From Gemmatimonas phototrophica (GTDB taxonomy: Bacteria; Gemmatimonadota; Gemmatimonadetes; Gemmatimonadales; Gemmatimonadaceae): DNA of 64,000 nt. Location: the NCBI RefSeq assembly GCF_000695095.2, contig NZ_CP011454.1, forward strand, positions 496,001-560,000, written 5' to 3'. Every line of letters begins with the position of its first letter. The first letter of the stretch is position 1. Both the position numbers and the translations under genes were made by a program. Positions 2,546 to 55,559 of this stretch are shown piece after piece. The notes under the pieces are model-generated. The model was not told where the DNA came from. It searched no databases and was given only the letters and a program-made list of their open reading frames with translations.

Positions 2546-3873
2546 TGCGTCGCCTGGTCATTCTGCTCATTCTGTACGCCGTCATGCGGGGCGTGTTCGA
2601 GCTGGCCAGTGCGTCCGCCGGCACGCCAACGTTGATGCTGTTCGGCTTCCTGATTCTGGGAGCCTACAGCGTGGGAGAGCTGGTCAAGCCCCTCGGGATC
2701 CCGAAGATCGTGGGATACATGGCGGCTGGCATTCTGTTTGGGCCGTCGGCTTTGGCGTATGTCTCAAAGCCGGCGCTGGCAGAACTCACCCCCGTGAGCA
2801 ATCTCGCGATCGCACTCATTGCTTTCCTGGCCGGCGCAGAGTTGCAGTGGTCGGAAATTCGTCAGCGCGGTGTGGCGATCCTCAAAATGATGTCGGCCGA
2901 ACTGCTGCTCTGTTTTGTGGGAGTGGCAGGCACTTTGGCATTGTTGCGTGGACAGCTGCCGCTCCTGGCGCAGGCGCCGGCGGCCGAGGTCTTTGCCTTC
3001 TCCCTGCTGTTCGCAGCCGTCGCGGTGGTGCACTCACCGGCGGCAACCATTGCCTTGCTCTCCGAATCGAAAGCCAACGGCCCGGTGGCACGCTACACGC
3101 TTGGTGTGGTGCTCGTCATGGACGTTGCCGTTGTGCTCATCTTCACCGCAGTATTGTCGTCCGCTCGCGCCCTCGTCCCGCCAAGCGGTGGCGGAGGAGG
3201 CGTCCAGGTCGGAACGGTACTCTGGGAGATTGGTGGGGCCGTGCTGGTGGGTGGCGTGTTGGGGGCGGCCGTGTCTCTCTATCTGCGCTTCATCAGCCGA
3301 GAGCTGATGATTCTGGCCTTGCTGGTAGCCTTGTTGGGGGCGGAGCTGGCGCGCGTGCTCCATGTGGAAACGTTGCTCACGCTGCTCGTGGCCGGCTTCG
3401 TCACCGAGAACGCCGGTGGGGGGCGCGGCGAGAACTTCCGGCACGCCATGGAGCGCGCGGCGGCGCCCATTTTCGTGGTGTTCTTTGCCTTGTCCGGGGC
3501 GCGTATTGATCCGCTGGCGGTGCTGCCGTTATGGACCATCGTGGTGCCAATCGTCCTCGTGCGCATCGTCGCCATTTGGGGGGGCATCCAGCTTGGCGGG
3601 CGGTGGGCCAAGCTGGATCCGGCCATTCACCGGCACGCGTGGTATGGCCTGGTTTCTCAAGCGGGCGTGGCGTTTGGGCTGGCGGCCGTCGTTGCCGACG
3701 TGTACCCGGCGCGCGGTGAGACGCTCCGCGCGTTATTGCTGGCCACGATTGCGATCAATCAGACGATTGGGCCGATCCTCTTCCGCTTCGGGTTGCAGCG
3801 CGCGGGGGAGCTGAATGCGGAGAGCCCATCTACGCCGTTGCAACAAATACAGACTCACAACGCTCACCCGTAA
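2545..3873 (+). CDS. Cation:proton antiporter (KefB/CPA2-like)
   Basis: Membrane protein of 442 aa that should exchange Na+ or K+ for H+ across the inner membrane. The motif LVKPLGIPKIVGYMAAGILF followed by GPSAL is the classic CPA2 helix-2 signature, and AFLAGAELQ matches the family's helix 4. A Gly-rich loop (GGGGGV) lies mid-protein. There is no C-terminal RCK/TrkA-N domain, unlike full KefB/KefC. It is coupled to the upstream antiporter by a TAATG overlap. The last codons and stop lie inside a long hairpin (3851-3918). Confidence 0.8.
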   Translation: MRRLVILLILYAVMRGVFELASASAGTPTLMLFGFLILGAYSVGELVKPLGIPKIVGYMAAGILFGPSALAYVSKPALAELTPVSNLAIALIAFLAGAELQWSEIRQRGVAILKMMSAELLLCFVGVAGTLALLRGQLPLLAQAPAAEVFAFSLLFAAVAVVHSPAATIALLSESKANGPVARYTLGVVLVMDVAVVLIFTAVLSSARALVPPSGGGGGVQVGTVLWEIGGAVLVGGVLGAAVSLYLRFISRELMILALLVALLGAELARVLHVETLLTLLVAGFVTENAGGGRGENFRHAMERAAAPIFVVFFALSGARIDPLAVLPLWTIVVPIVLVRIVAIWGGIQLGGRWAKLDPAIHRHAWYGLVSQAGVAFGLAAVVADVYPARGETLRALLLATIAINQTIGPILFRFGLQRAGELNAESPSTPLQQIQTHNAHP

Positions 3874-3918
3874 ACCGGAACGGATCGGTTTCGGGTTCTG
3901 GGTGAGCGTTGTGAATCT
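3851..3918. terminator. Long hairpin between convergent genes
   Basis: A 19-bp outer stem (3851-3869 with 3900-3918, one mismatch) encloses an inner AAACCG...CGGTTT stem. It covers the antiporter stop codon and lies between convergent transcripts, so it probably terminates transcription in both directions. The centre, CCGGAAC-N-GATC-N-GTTTCGGG, recurs near 55494. Confidence 0.65.
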
Positions 3919-3941
3919 GGGTTCCCGTGAACGGTCGCGCG

Positions 3942-5956: not shown

Positions 5957-7146
5957 TCCGGCACGGGGGTGCTAACGGCACCGGAGATGCTCGTGCGCGT
6001 GGCCATGCGCGCCAGCAGCGTAGCGCCAATGATGCCAGTGAGCAGGGAGCCAGCCAGCACGCCCACCTTGGCAGCGTCCAACTGCGCACTTTCTCCAAAG
6101 GCAAGCCCTGCAATGAAGAGCGCCATGGTAAAGCCGATCCCGCCCAGCACCGACACCCCGAACAGGCCACTCCAGCTGCAGCTGGTCGGGAGTTCGGCCC
6201 AGCGCATTTTTACCGCCAGCCACGCGGCGCCAAAGATGCCGAGGGGCTTGCCAATCAGCAGGCCAAGCATGGTGGCGATGACCGCGGGCTGTGTGGCAAA
6301 TGACGCCATATCCGCAGGGAGTGTGACGCCCGCGTTGGCCAGTGCAAAGACGGGGACGATGCCAAAGTTGACCGGTCGAGCCAGTACTTGCTCCAGCTGA
6401 TGCTGCACGCAGTGCGCGCCCCGCGAGGGAATGGTGATGGCGAGCAGCACGCCGGCGATGCTGGCGTGCACACCGGATTTGTACACGGCGATCCAGAGCA
6501 GCAGTCCGCCGATTACATAGGGCCACACGGTGTGCACCTGCTTCTTGTTGAGCCAAAGCAGTCCACCCATGATGGCCAGAATCGCGGCGAGTGCCAGCGT
6601 GACGACGCTCGGGGTGTAAAAAATGGCGATCACCACGACCGCGCCGATATCGTCGGCAATGGCCAACGCGGCGAGAAAGATGCGCAGCGGAGCTGCCACC
6701 CGGTCGCCGAGCAGCGCCACGATGCCCAGCGCGAAGGCAATGTCGGTGGCCATGGGGATCCCCCAGCCGCGCGTGGCCGGGGTACCCACTGCAACGGCGG
6801 TATAAATGGCGGCGGGTAAGAGCATGCCGCCCAAGGCACCCACCACTGGCAGTGCCGCCTGACGCACGGACGAAAGGGCACCGTCCTGCAGCTCGTGCTT
6901 GATCTCGAGGCCGACGAGCAGGAAGAACACGGCCATCAGGCCGTCATTGATGAAGTGCATGGCCGACCACCCGGCCACGTCCACATGCAACAGGTGATGG
7001 TAGCTGGCCTGCCAGGGAGAGTTGGCCCAGATGAGGGCGGCGGCTGCACAGAGCAGCAGCAGCAGACCACTGAGCGCCTGGCTCGGCGGTGGCGCCTTCT
7101 CGGAGACGTAACCTTCCTCGATATCCATCACATTTTCTTCATGCAT
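5953..7146 (-). CDS. nhaA: Na+/H+ antiporter NhaA
   Basis: Inner-membrane antiporter of 397 aa that exports Na+ in exchange for H+. Family hallmarks are visible: FFLLVGLEIKHEL, the ATDIAFALGI helix with the conserved Asp, and ALAIADDIGAVVVIA with the paired Asp residues used for ion transport. Length matches the family (380-400 aa). Two starts are possible, the ATG at 7146 or the ATG at 7128; the latter has a GAAGA stretch upstream. It is first in an operon with a HAD phosphatase and a glycosyltransferase. Confidence 0.93.
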   Translation of the reverse strand: MHEENVMDIEEGYVSEKAPPPSQALSGLLLLLCAAAALIWANSPWQASYHHLLHVDVAGWSAMHFINDGLMAVFFLLVGLEIKHELQDGALSSVRQAALPVVGALGGMLLPAAIYTAVAVGTPATRGWGIPMATDIAFALGIVALLGDRVAAPLRIFLAALAIADDIGAVVVIAIFYTPSVVTLALAAILAIMGGLLWLNKKQVHTVWPYVIGGLLLWIAVYKSGVHASIAGVLLAITIPSRGAHCVQHQLEQVLARPVNFGIVPVFALANAGVTLPADMASFATQPAVIATMLGLLIGKPLGIFGAAWLAVKMRWAELPTSCSWSGLFGVSVLGGIGFTMALFIAGLAFGESAQLDAAKVGVLAGSLLTGIIGATLLARMATRTSISGAVSTPVPE

Positions 7147-13059: not shown

Positions 13060-13977
13060 ATGAAGGCAGCGACAATTCTCGAGACCATTGGCCATACGCC
13101 GCACGTGCGCATTCAACGCCTCTTTGACGCGCCCGTCGAGGTCTGGATGAAGCTTGAGCGCGCCAATCCCGGCGGCAGTATCAAGGACCGCATAGCGCTC
13201 AGCATGATTGAGGACGCCGAACGTCGCGGGCTGCTGACGAAGGACAGTGTGATCATTGAACCCACATCGGGGAACACCGGCATCGGGCTGGCGATGGTGG
13301 CGGCCGTGAAGGGGTACAAGCTCGTGTTGGTGATGCCGGAGTCCATGAGCATCGAACGCCGGCGCATCATGGCAGCCTACGGCGCCACCTTCGATCTCAC
13401 GCCGCGCGAGAAGGGAATGAAGGGGGCCATTGCACGGGCGCAGGAGCTGTTTGAGGCAACGCCCAATGCGTGGATGCCGTCGCAGTTTGATAACCCCGCC
13501 AATATTTCGGCCCACGTGGAAACCACCGCCCGGGAAATCCTCGCGGACTTTCCGGAGGGGCTGGACTATCTCATTACCGGCGTGGGGACCGGCGGGCATA
13601 TCACGGCGGTGAGCGAGGTACTCAAGGCGGAGTGGCCACATCTGCAGACGTTCGCCGTGGAGCCGGCCAAGTCCGCGGTGATCAGCGGCGGCCCGCCAAG
13701 CCCGCACCGCATTCAGGGCGTGGGCGCCGGATTCATTCCCGCCAATCTGCGCGTGGAGACACTGAACGGCGCCATTCAGGTCACCGAAGAAGATGCGTTT
13801 CTGTACGCGCAACGGGCGGCGCGCGAAGAAGGGCTGTTCATCGGCATTTCCAGCGGCGCGTCGCTGGCGGCCGTGGCCCAGAAGATCCCCGAGATGACAA
13901 GCGGCGCGCGCGTGCTCACGTTCTGCTACGACACGGGCGAAAGGTACCTATCCATCGACGGCCTCTTTACGGCGTGA
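13060..13977 (+). CDS. cysK: Cysteine synthase A (O-acetylserine sulfhydrylase)
   Basis: PLP enzyme of 305 aa that makes cysteine from O-acetylserine and sulfide. The PLP lysine is in [11 protein letters not shown] (about residue 42). The substrate loop [14 protein letters not shown], the [14 protein letters not shown] phosphate-binding region and the C-terminal [10 protein letters not shown] are all present. Length is normal for the family. It is the second gene of a cysE-cysK pair. A long inverted-repeat region begins just after its stop. Confidence 0.95.
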
Positions 13978-13980
13978 GAT

Positions 13981-14290
13981 CTCAGATCTGAGAGTCAGAG
14001 TTGAGAATCGAAACAATGCGATGGATATCGAAGGTGAGAGTGTCGAGATAACCACGACGATGAGAAGTCCGAGTGGTTGCCTCCGCGCGCCTGTGCCCCG
14101 CACAGGCTTGGGGTAACGGCGTCCGGGGGTAACGGCGGGGACGACCGCTGTTCCAGCGGCGTCCGTGGGGGGCACCGTCACGCGGACGAAGTACTCGCAC
14201 CTCTCACCGTCGTGGTTATCTCGATACTCTCACCTTCGATATCCATCGCACTTCGCGACTCTCAACGCTCTCAACACTCTCAGTTCGTCG
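13981..14290. repeat. Large imperfect inverted-repeat element
   Basis: The 342-bp gap between cysK and rmuC is mostly one giant imperfect palindrome. The core arms 14018-14059 and 14208-14249 pair over 42 bp with a single mismatch. Pairing continues less perfectly outward to about 13989 and 14283, and inward to about 14085. The outer parts are built of short direct repeats of a CTCTCAA-type unit. The centre holds smaller hairpins such as CCTGTGC/GCACAGG. No ORF with coding character is seen. Confidence 0.8.
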
Positions 14291-14319
14291 TCTTGCCTCT
14301 GTCCTCGCACTTTCTCAGC

Positions 14320-15426
14320 ATGGATCTCTTGTCGGGCGTGATTGGTTTGGTGTGTGGCGTGCTGCTCGGTGCACTTGGCGCCTGGCTGGTGACGCGCGCG
14401 CTGTCGCGGGCACATGTCGCCCGCGCAGTGAGCGAGGCGGAGTCGGGATTGCGGGCGCAGCTGGCGCGTCATGAGGCCGAGTCGGCGTTGACGGCGCGTC
14501 ACGGCAACGTAGCGGAGCTGCTGGGGCCTATTCGCGATACGCTGGCGCGCTACGATGAGGTGCTGGCCCAGTTGGGGCGTGCGCAGGCTCAGGTGGCGGG
14601 GCAGATTGGCGAACGGCTGGATGCCGTGGTGCTGTCAGGTGAATCGCTGCGCCGCGAAACGCAGCAGCTCTCGCAGGCGCTGCGGGCGCCCACCGTGCGC
14701 GGGCAGTGGGGGGAACTGCAATTGCGCCGAGTGTGTGAGCTGGCGGGGATGCTGGCGTACTGCGACTTCGAACCCCAGGTGTCGGTGCGTACCGACGACG
14801 GCGTACAGCGCCCTGATCTCATTGTGCGGCTTCCGGGTGAGCGCCGATTGGTGGTGGATGCCAAGGCGCCGCTGTCAGGCTACCTCGAAGCCATGGCGGC
14901 GCCGGATGACCGGCAGCGCACGGCACGGTTGGTCGATCATGCGGCGCAGGTCCGTGCGCATGTGCAGAAGTTGAGCGCCAAGAAGTACTGGGCGCAGTTC
15001 GCCGACGCCCCGGACTTTGTGGTGCTCTTTCTCCCGGGCGAAGCGTTTTTTGCGGCGGCGCTCGATGCTGACCCAACGCTACTGGAGAGCGCGTTGGGCG
15101 AGCGCGTGTTGCTGGCCACACCCACCACGCTGATCGCGTTGCTCAAGGCCGCGGCCTACGGGTGGCGGCAGGAGCGCGTGGCCGAACAGGCGGAGCAGGT
15201 GGCACTGCTCGGGCGTGAGCTGCACGACCGGCTCGGGGTGTTTGACGAGCAGCTGGTGGAGATGGGGCGCGGTCTGCAGCGCGCGGTCGTGGCGTACAAC
15301 CGCGCACTGGGCAGTCTCGAGTCGCGCGTACTGGTGTCGGCGCGCAAGCTGGGGGAGCTCAGTGGCGCCGATACGGTGTTGCCGGAGGTGCCGTTGCTCG
15401 ACACGGCGGTGAAGGGGGCGGAGTGA
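14320..15426 (+). CDS. rmuC: DNA recombination protein RmuC family
   Basis: Protein of 368 aa with an N-terminal membrane helix ([20 protein letters not shown]), a coiled-coil region (about 35-110) and the RmuC nuclease-like core. Core motifs seen are [38 protein letters not shown] and [19 protein letters not shown]. RmuC limits recombination at inverted repeats in E. coli. Here the gene lies directly downstream of a large inverted repeat, probably by coincidence. The start at ATG 14320 excludes the repeat region that keeps the frame open upstream. The stop overlaps the next gene as GTGA. Confidence 0.88.
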
Positions 15427-16148: not shown

Positions 16149-16479
16149 GTGCTGCGGTTCGGGTTTGGACCTGCCACCTCAGTTCTGGACCACCACAGCG
16201 GTTCTGGACCACCACTGCGGTTGAGGAACACGGCGGTTTGGGTCTCTGCGGAAGTGCCGCCCGGCTGCGCCGTGGCGGCACGTTCTGGTGGTTGATATAC
16301 CGGCCACTGCAGTTGAAGTGAGACCACCACCAAAGGAATGCGCCCGCCCGGCAAAGCCGGCGGGCGCTTCCATTTCCACCCCAACTGCGGTGTTCCTCAA
16401 CTGCAGTGGTGGTCCAGAACTGCAGTGGTGGTCCAGAACTGCAGGAGAGGTTTCAAACCCGAACCGCAGTGGCAGGCAA
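16143..16479. repeat. Large inverted-repeat element built of short tandem units
   Basis: The 349-bp gap between convergent genes holds two arms of about 100 bp (16143-16241 and 16381-16479) that pair imperfectly but along their whole length. Each arm contains direct repeats of a 19-22 bp unit of type GTTCTGGACCACCACTGCG, and CTGCGGTT/CTGCAGTT recurs many times. The space between the arms contains two further hairpins (GTGCCGCC/GGCGGCAC near 16254-16281, and 16340-16367). No coding potential was seen. Confidence 0.82.
16340..16367. terminator. Strong GC hairpin between convergent genes
   Basis: A 12-bp GC-only stem with one bulge and an AAA loop (GCGCCCGCC.../...GGCGGGCGC) lies in the middle of the inverted-repeat element. 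It fits a bidirectional terminator for the HipA-like gene and the minus-strand acidic-protein gene, though no long T-tract follows. Confidence 0.6.
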
Positions 16480-55451: not shown

Positions 55452-55483
55452 AGTGGGAAGGAAACCCTCAACTCGAAACGCAA

Positions 55484-55519
55484 ACTCAAGACCCGGAACT
55501 GATCAGTTTCGGGTTATGA
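55484..55519. terminator. Hairpin downstream of the NtrC-type regulator gene
   Basis: Arms near AACTCAAGACCCG and CGGGTTATGAGTT (two mismatches) around a GAACTGATCAGTTTC centre, about 40 nt beyond the regulator's stop. The centre is nearly the same as that of the hairpin at 3851-3918. Probably terminates the regulator transcript. Confidence 0.5.
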
Positions 55520-55559
55520 GTTCAGGCTGCGGGTGATGGGTGACCGCCTGGATGGCCAG

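Follow-up and report, generated by a model that had tools for sequence, protein, structure and literature searches.

The gap between cysK and rmuC holds a long imperfect palindrome

We examined a 64,000-nucleotide stretch of the Gemmatimonas phototrophica chromosome (hereafter, the window), which forms a single contig (4,716,552 bases), has dnaA at base 175, and carries reaction-centre genes. In the gap between a cysK-like gene and rmuC, the first-pass annotation had described a pairing of 42 bp with one mismatch (14018-14059 with 14208-14249), and reading the letters bore this out. A repeat search of the window extends the inverted repeat to 14017-14074 and 14193-14250, giving 58-nt arms that are 93% complementary and 118 nt apart. 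The weaker pairing described outside these arms is present as well, and the CTCTCAA-like tandem units ascribed to the arms are found in the right outer arm, where TRF reports a 9-nt ACTCTCAAC unit at 14258-14282. The parts of the locus are as follows:

13060-13977, plus strand: upstream gene, cysK-like PLP enzyme (PF00291; domain match)
13975-13981, plus strand: TGAGATC, the 7-nt unit that opens the left outer arm; its first three letters are the cysK stop codon, 13975-13977 (sequence)
13978-14016, no strand: left outer arm, a degenerate GA-rich array with a 7-nt period (sequence, family comparison)
14017-14031, plus strand: left core TGCGATGGATATCGA, near-invariant, in part by ascertainment as it was the search seed (core scans)
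14032-14074, no strand: left inner arm, module 2 of type A followed by module 3 (repeat search, family comparison)
14075-14192, no strand: central region with side hairpins (sequence, fold)
14143-14164, plus strand: centre hairpin GACCGCTGTTCCAGCGGCGTCC, an interior segment that is well preserved, with 0-2 mismatches in 20 of the 31 full members (family comparison)
14193-14235, no strand: right inner arm (repeat search, family comparison)
14236-14250, minus strand: right core, the reverse complement of TGCGATGGATATCGA (core scans)
14251-14283, no strand: right outer arm, CTCTCAA-type units that fade towards rmuC (sequence, TRF)
14320-15426, plus strand: downstream gene rmuC (PF02646; domain match, coding-model start)

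The 342-nt gap is predicted to fold at -195.4 kcal/mol, compared with -122.7 (s.d. 6.3) for 100 dinucleotide shuffles, none of which folded as well (z = -11.5). Rfam covariance models gave no match to the element at E ≤ 5. Inspected by eye, the element does not resemble an intrinsic terminator, in which a GC-rich stem precedes a T-run: neither strand has such a run past the stem. The earlier statement that the element has no ORF holds under the coding model, which starts rmuC at ATG 14320, but not mechanically, as a TTG ORF (14077-15426) crosses the element into rmuC.

A dispersed family of mosaic palindromes

The element is far from single copy, so that the first-pass refuting condition (single copy, not conserved, not transcribed) fails on copy number. 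A DNA search of its own genome returned at least 97 matches at E ≤ 10 (the best 40 of 65 candidates were scored), and an exhaustive 14-mer scan allowing at most one mismatch found 47 hits in the forward and 49 in the reverse orientation; the reversed pattern found 0 in either. When hits to the 15-mer core are paired, 31 full members carrying both arms result, and 25 hits stay single; 21 of these are half members, and four (at 503118, 508689, 2492368, and 2594658) were set aside as non-members by eye. The genome thus holds a dispersed family of 52 members, a lower bound since copies lacking the core and lying beyond the best 40 candidates would escape, and the suggestion of a miniature palindromic element proved apt. 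Elsewhere in the window, a lone core 14-mer at 7118-7131, with no arms or family context, is probably a chance occurrence or a remnant.

Members share one layout, with a core-to-core span of mostly about 215 bp. From the outside inwards, a GA-rich array of 7-nt period (TGAGATC...) is followed by the core TGCGATGGATATCGA, module 2, module 3, GTGCCCC-type stems, and finally the centre hairpin GACCGCTGTTCCAGCGGCGTCC. The 7-nt period is evident in the outer 66 nt of 83 family arms (lag-7 self-match of 0.43 vs 0.28 when shuffled), and homology between members fades through these arrays, leaving no sharp ends or settable boundary.

Within this layout, the arms are mosaics. Module 2 occurs in two main types (A and B) and module 3 in three. 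Module 2 types are independent between the two arms of a member (16 of 29 matched, 16.8 expected), in agreement with free patching, which predicts such independence. Module 3 types, in classes drawn up after the data were seen, match between arms below chance (4 of 28, 9.9 expected, P = 0.008), the opposite of what hairpin selection would predict. Among 14 members taken as type A on both arms, arms are still more alike within a copy than between copies (0.845 vs 0.815; 9 of 5000 permutations as high). In 11 of the 21 half members, judged by eye, a GTTATGGGTTATCGGGTTACC-type module stands in place of the missing arm; these half members are located at 753-941 kb and at 4155798.

Members sit directly behind genes

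All 52 members are intergenic. Using gene calls from a purpose-built simple codon model, 51 members had both neighbors called, and these occupy 20 convergent, 29 tandem, and 2 divergent gaps, compared with 6, 61, and 29, respectively, for ordinary gaps of 150-1200 nt (n = 96). The core lies at a median of 70 nt from a gene 3' end (IQR 59-79, n = 44), and at 136 nt from a 5' end (n = 16). At 12 of the 69 gene 3' ends facing members, TGAGATC is found at the stop, such that the stop codon also forms part of the array's first unit. We also considered whether, in convergent gaps, the hairpin fills precisely the space between the two stop codons, as 80 of 106 sides come within 10 nt, but a shuffling control weakened this: with the outer 35 nt shuffled, 65% of sides were still within 10 nt, vs 78% observed.

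As for the first-pass suggestion of a large structured transcript, a position immediately after stop codons would suit a structure at transcript ends, and from this placement, together with the analogy to REP sequences (PMC3733652, available text), a structural role at gene 3' ends appears most likely. Strong hairpins seated behind genes and between convergent genes are also what ordinary bidirectional transcription terminators turned repetitive would show. We consider such an origin improbable, as the stems are far longer than those of terminators, the cysK-rmuC stem lacks the T-tract, and the sequence likeness extends across the whole lineage. Moreover, some members sit beyond a separate, ordinary GC-rich terminator-like hairpin, and so are not the sole 3'-end structure there.

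Members are scarce around the terminus

Only 2 of the 52 members lie between 1.234 and 3.168 Mb, a zone of 1.93 Mb, or 41% of the chromosome, whose limits were chosen after the data were seen (binomial P = 6e-9, computed for n = 48). An earlier impression that the family was wholly absent from 1.23-3.17 Mb was rejected when the exhaustive 14-mer scan added members, two of them inside the zone. Coding strand and GC skew switch near 2.1 Mb (10-kb samples), so the member-poor zone surrounds ter. Convergent gaps are moderately rarer in this zone (8.5 per 100 kb vs 13 outside), and their scarcity does not account for the deficit.

Two other palindromes of the window were also traced through the genome. 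A second palindromic family, represented at 16152-16469 (141-nt arms, 77% complementary), where it fills the gap separating a HipA_2-like gene from one on the minus strand, occupies 14 places, all at 142-952 kb or 3.108-3.665 Mb; only two are in the zone, both at its right edge. A short palindrome in a convergent gap (3850-3919) belongs to a family of 11 places, one of which (3032696) is in the zone. Another quasi-palindrome, at 55464-55541, shares CTCAAC/GTTTCGGGTT-type wording.

A depletion of repeats near ter has been published for this phylum. Tomasch et al. 2024 (PMC11237797, available text) sorted repeats into size classes of 80-250 and >250 bp, and in G. phototrophica counted 86 repeats outside and 4 inside a high-strand-bias region, the strand-biased ter region spanning about 600 kb. 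Their counts very likely include copies of our family, and the deficit that we observe is the repeat-poor domain already described for Gemmatimonadota, here extending well beyond 600 kb: the member-poor zone is about three times wider than the published region. The available text of that study does not describe a palindrome, the family's anatomy, its placement at gene ends, or a cross-species comparison of sites; in its main text, "palindrom" and "intergenic" each occur 0 times. Our literature search, with most subscription papers outside its scope, found neither a description of the family nor a report that Gemmatimonas species share sites.

These data bear on the first-pass proposal of a chromosome-organising site. 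Members could act as macrodomain signals that mark the origin-proximal part of the chromosome, as the deficit and the only moderate rarity of convergent gaps near ter would suggest. However, the same deficit is expected of any repeat in this chromosome, given the published depletion, the two other palindromic families are likewise scarce there, and the zone limits were fixed after the fact. We therefore regard this role as highly improbable.

Relatives carry other hairpin families in some of the same gaps

Searching 12 same-genus genomes with the G. phototrophica family sequence gave no match at E ≤ 0.001 in any of them (0/12). In sequence, then, the element is not conserved, but hairpins are kept in some of the same gaps. 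The outer unit TGAGATCTGAGATC was found in six of the 12 same-genus genomes (G001, G002, G003, G005, G006, and G009) and in none of 8 genomes outside the genus, and several of its matches, among the loci read, are long hairpins with other stems. Overall, four of the 12 same-genus genomes, as well as G030, carry other hairpin families. Family 2 is matched 52 times in G006, 51 times in G009, and 56 times in G030, with 0 matches in G026 or G028; for family 3, G004 has 43 matches and G001 has 44, and G021 and G022 have 0.

The cysK-rmuC gap itself holds a hairpin in G. phototrophica (G000) and in five relatives: G030, G004, and G001, as determined by reading, and G006 and G009, as determined by match coordinates and flanking genes. 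The G021 gap is about 40 nt long and empty, and G005 and G031 have another gene at this place. A pair of family-3 hairpins flanks rmuC in G001 (C51:90100-94600), one on either side of the gene at a separation of about 1.1 kb. In two relatives (loci L255 and L259), runs of N occur near rmuC, within an acidic-repeat coding stretch.

Requiring both flanking proteins to match, 8 of the 52 G. phototrophica sites have a counterpart site in one or more relatives, although at two of the eight (802082 and 1231149) one flank has only 64-70% identity. Of 27 sites examined in G006, 6 are shared (stratified expectation ≤0.60, P = 4e-5). The corresponding counts are 4 shared (0.58 expected) for G030, 2 (0.18) for G009, 3 (0.52) for G004, and 2 (0.51) for G001, with 30, 9, 24, and 24 sites examined, respectively; these sites are a part of all copies, and the per-relative tests are mutually dependent. 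Between relatives, 8 of the 9 examined G009 sites recur in G006, which indicates that positions are stable between close species.

The sequences at shared sites are no more alike than those elsewhere: G. phototrophica elements score a mean of 28-32 against the relative's element at the same site and 27-32 in other pairs, compared with 150 within G. phototrophica. In a descent comparison between families, shuffles were as good in 28 of 500 cases for the first family against the second, in 0 of 500 against the G001 consensus, and in 131 of 500 against the G004 consensus; here and in the nearest-neighbor comparisons below, short or half matches were left out.

The main alternative to inherited sites is the independent filling of hotspots, since hotspot re-insertion would yield shared sites as well. 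Each lineage may have been invaded by its own family of MITE-like, non-autonomous mobile hairpins that insert just behind stops and are purged elsewhere, with the shared gaps being hotspots. MITEs, like this family, are short, non-coding, bear inverted repeats, and occur in many copies, and our members are dispersed, lineage-private, and promoter-avoiding. The absence of family 3 from G021 and G022 and of family 2 from G026 and G028, and the empty G021 gap, also fit such invasions. Nevertheless, we consider this scenario rather unlikely. MITEs have discrete ends, but no boundary could be set here, homology fading through the 7-nt arrays, and among the orthologous sites no empty one came to light that would reveal a target-site duplication. 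A cognate transposase was not identified either: Y1_Tnp/RAYT (PF01797), the one transposase domain sought, had 0 matches in the genome at E ≤ 0.001 and was positive in 5 of 14 control genomes. The stability of positions between G009 and G006 argues against it as well, as does a lack of matches to the element in 50,697 phage and 72,556 plasmid records, on which basis a phage or plasmid origin was rejected.

Similarity to REP, BIME, and REPIN sequences

The closest known systems are REP/BIME sequences, which are GTAG- and CGTC-tagged palindromes of 20-40 bp (PMC3733652, available text). Like them, our family consists of dispersed extragenic palindromes, found mainly in convergent and tandem gaps near 3' ends. 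Like REP/BIME families (PMC3733652), it is lineage-specific, and some of its copies supply the stop codon, TAG in REPs and TGA here. It differs in having TGAGATC as the unit that overlaps the stop codon, and in its 58-bp arms, outer arrays, and branched centre, well outside the 20-40 bp REP unit. Persistence of within-genome sequence populations that evolve together is shared with the REPIN-RAYT system (PMC8049555, available text). Here, unlike in REPIN-RAYT, the same gap carries unrelated-looking stems across lineages, and we rejected a RAYT-driven REPIN, as the genome has no Y1_Tnp.

Family-3 hairpins are homogenized within genomes

To ask how copies relate between species, we compared each element with its nearest neighbor. 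In G001 and G004, which are moderately distant, the nearest element of family 3 was in the same genome in 44 of 44 cases and was the ortholog in 0 of 16 (label permutation, 0 of 2000). Paralogs are thus more alike than orthologs, which in sequence terms shows complete within-genome homogenization, with the orthology signal lost. This pattern was not seen in the close pair G006 and G030, in which the ortholog was the nearest element in 20 of the 24 cases with an orthologous site, in line with expectation for a recent split. The progression from close to distant pairs is as expected of a family that is homogenized within genomes while its sites are inherited.

Selection on the stem was gauged from alignments, leaving out those with <83% identity or <120 columns. 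Substitutions amounted to 6.7% in columns paired in either sequence, compared with 9.0% in unpaired columns, and there were 14 compensatory changes against a control mean of 2.6, although the pairs are not independent. These figures hint weakly at selection on stem pairing. A stronger conservation of stems (about 5% vs 17%) was withdrawn, as it was inflated by using the fold of one sequence, and the union-of-pairs count is fairer.

Hairpins that may outlast their own sequence

Our preferred explanation, which we hold with even confidence, is that the cysK-rmuC palindrome belongs to a resident, BIME-like family whose members are long and mosaic and are placed directly behind stop codons, acting as site-stable 3'-end hairpins that evolve in concert. 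The hairpin positions would be old and stable, and short patches would spread among the copies of a genome, by ectopic conversion or replicative patching, such that a stem "dialect" private to each lineage would gradually arise. What is kept would be the hairpin behind the gene, most plausibly as a transcript-end or insulating structure between neighboring, often converging, transcription units.

Palindromic repeats in bacteria are commonly interpreted as replicators driven by a transposase. We tentatively propose, as a reading that we hold slightly less likely than not, that in Gemmatimonas hairpins at fixed 3' gaps outlast their own sequence: position and fold may pass down the lineage, with the letters overwritten across the genome through patching between copies, generating private lineage dialects without a REP transposase. 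If true, such a family, staying in place, homogenized in every genome, and wholly different between sister lineages, would be a clear example in bacteria of dispersed non-coding DNA evolving in concert, and selection for structure rather than sequence behind genes would become testable.
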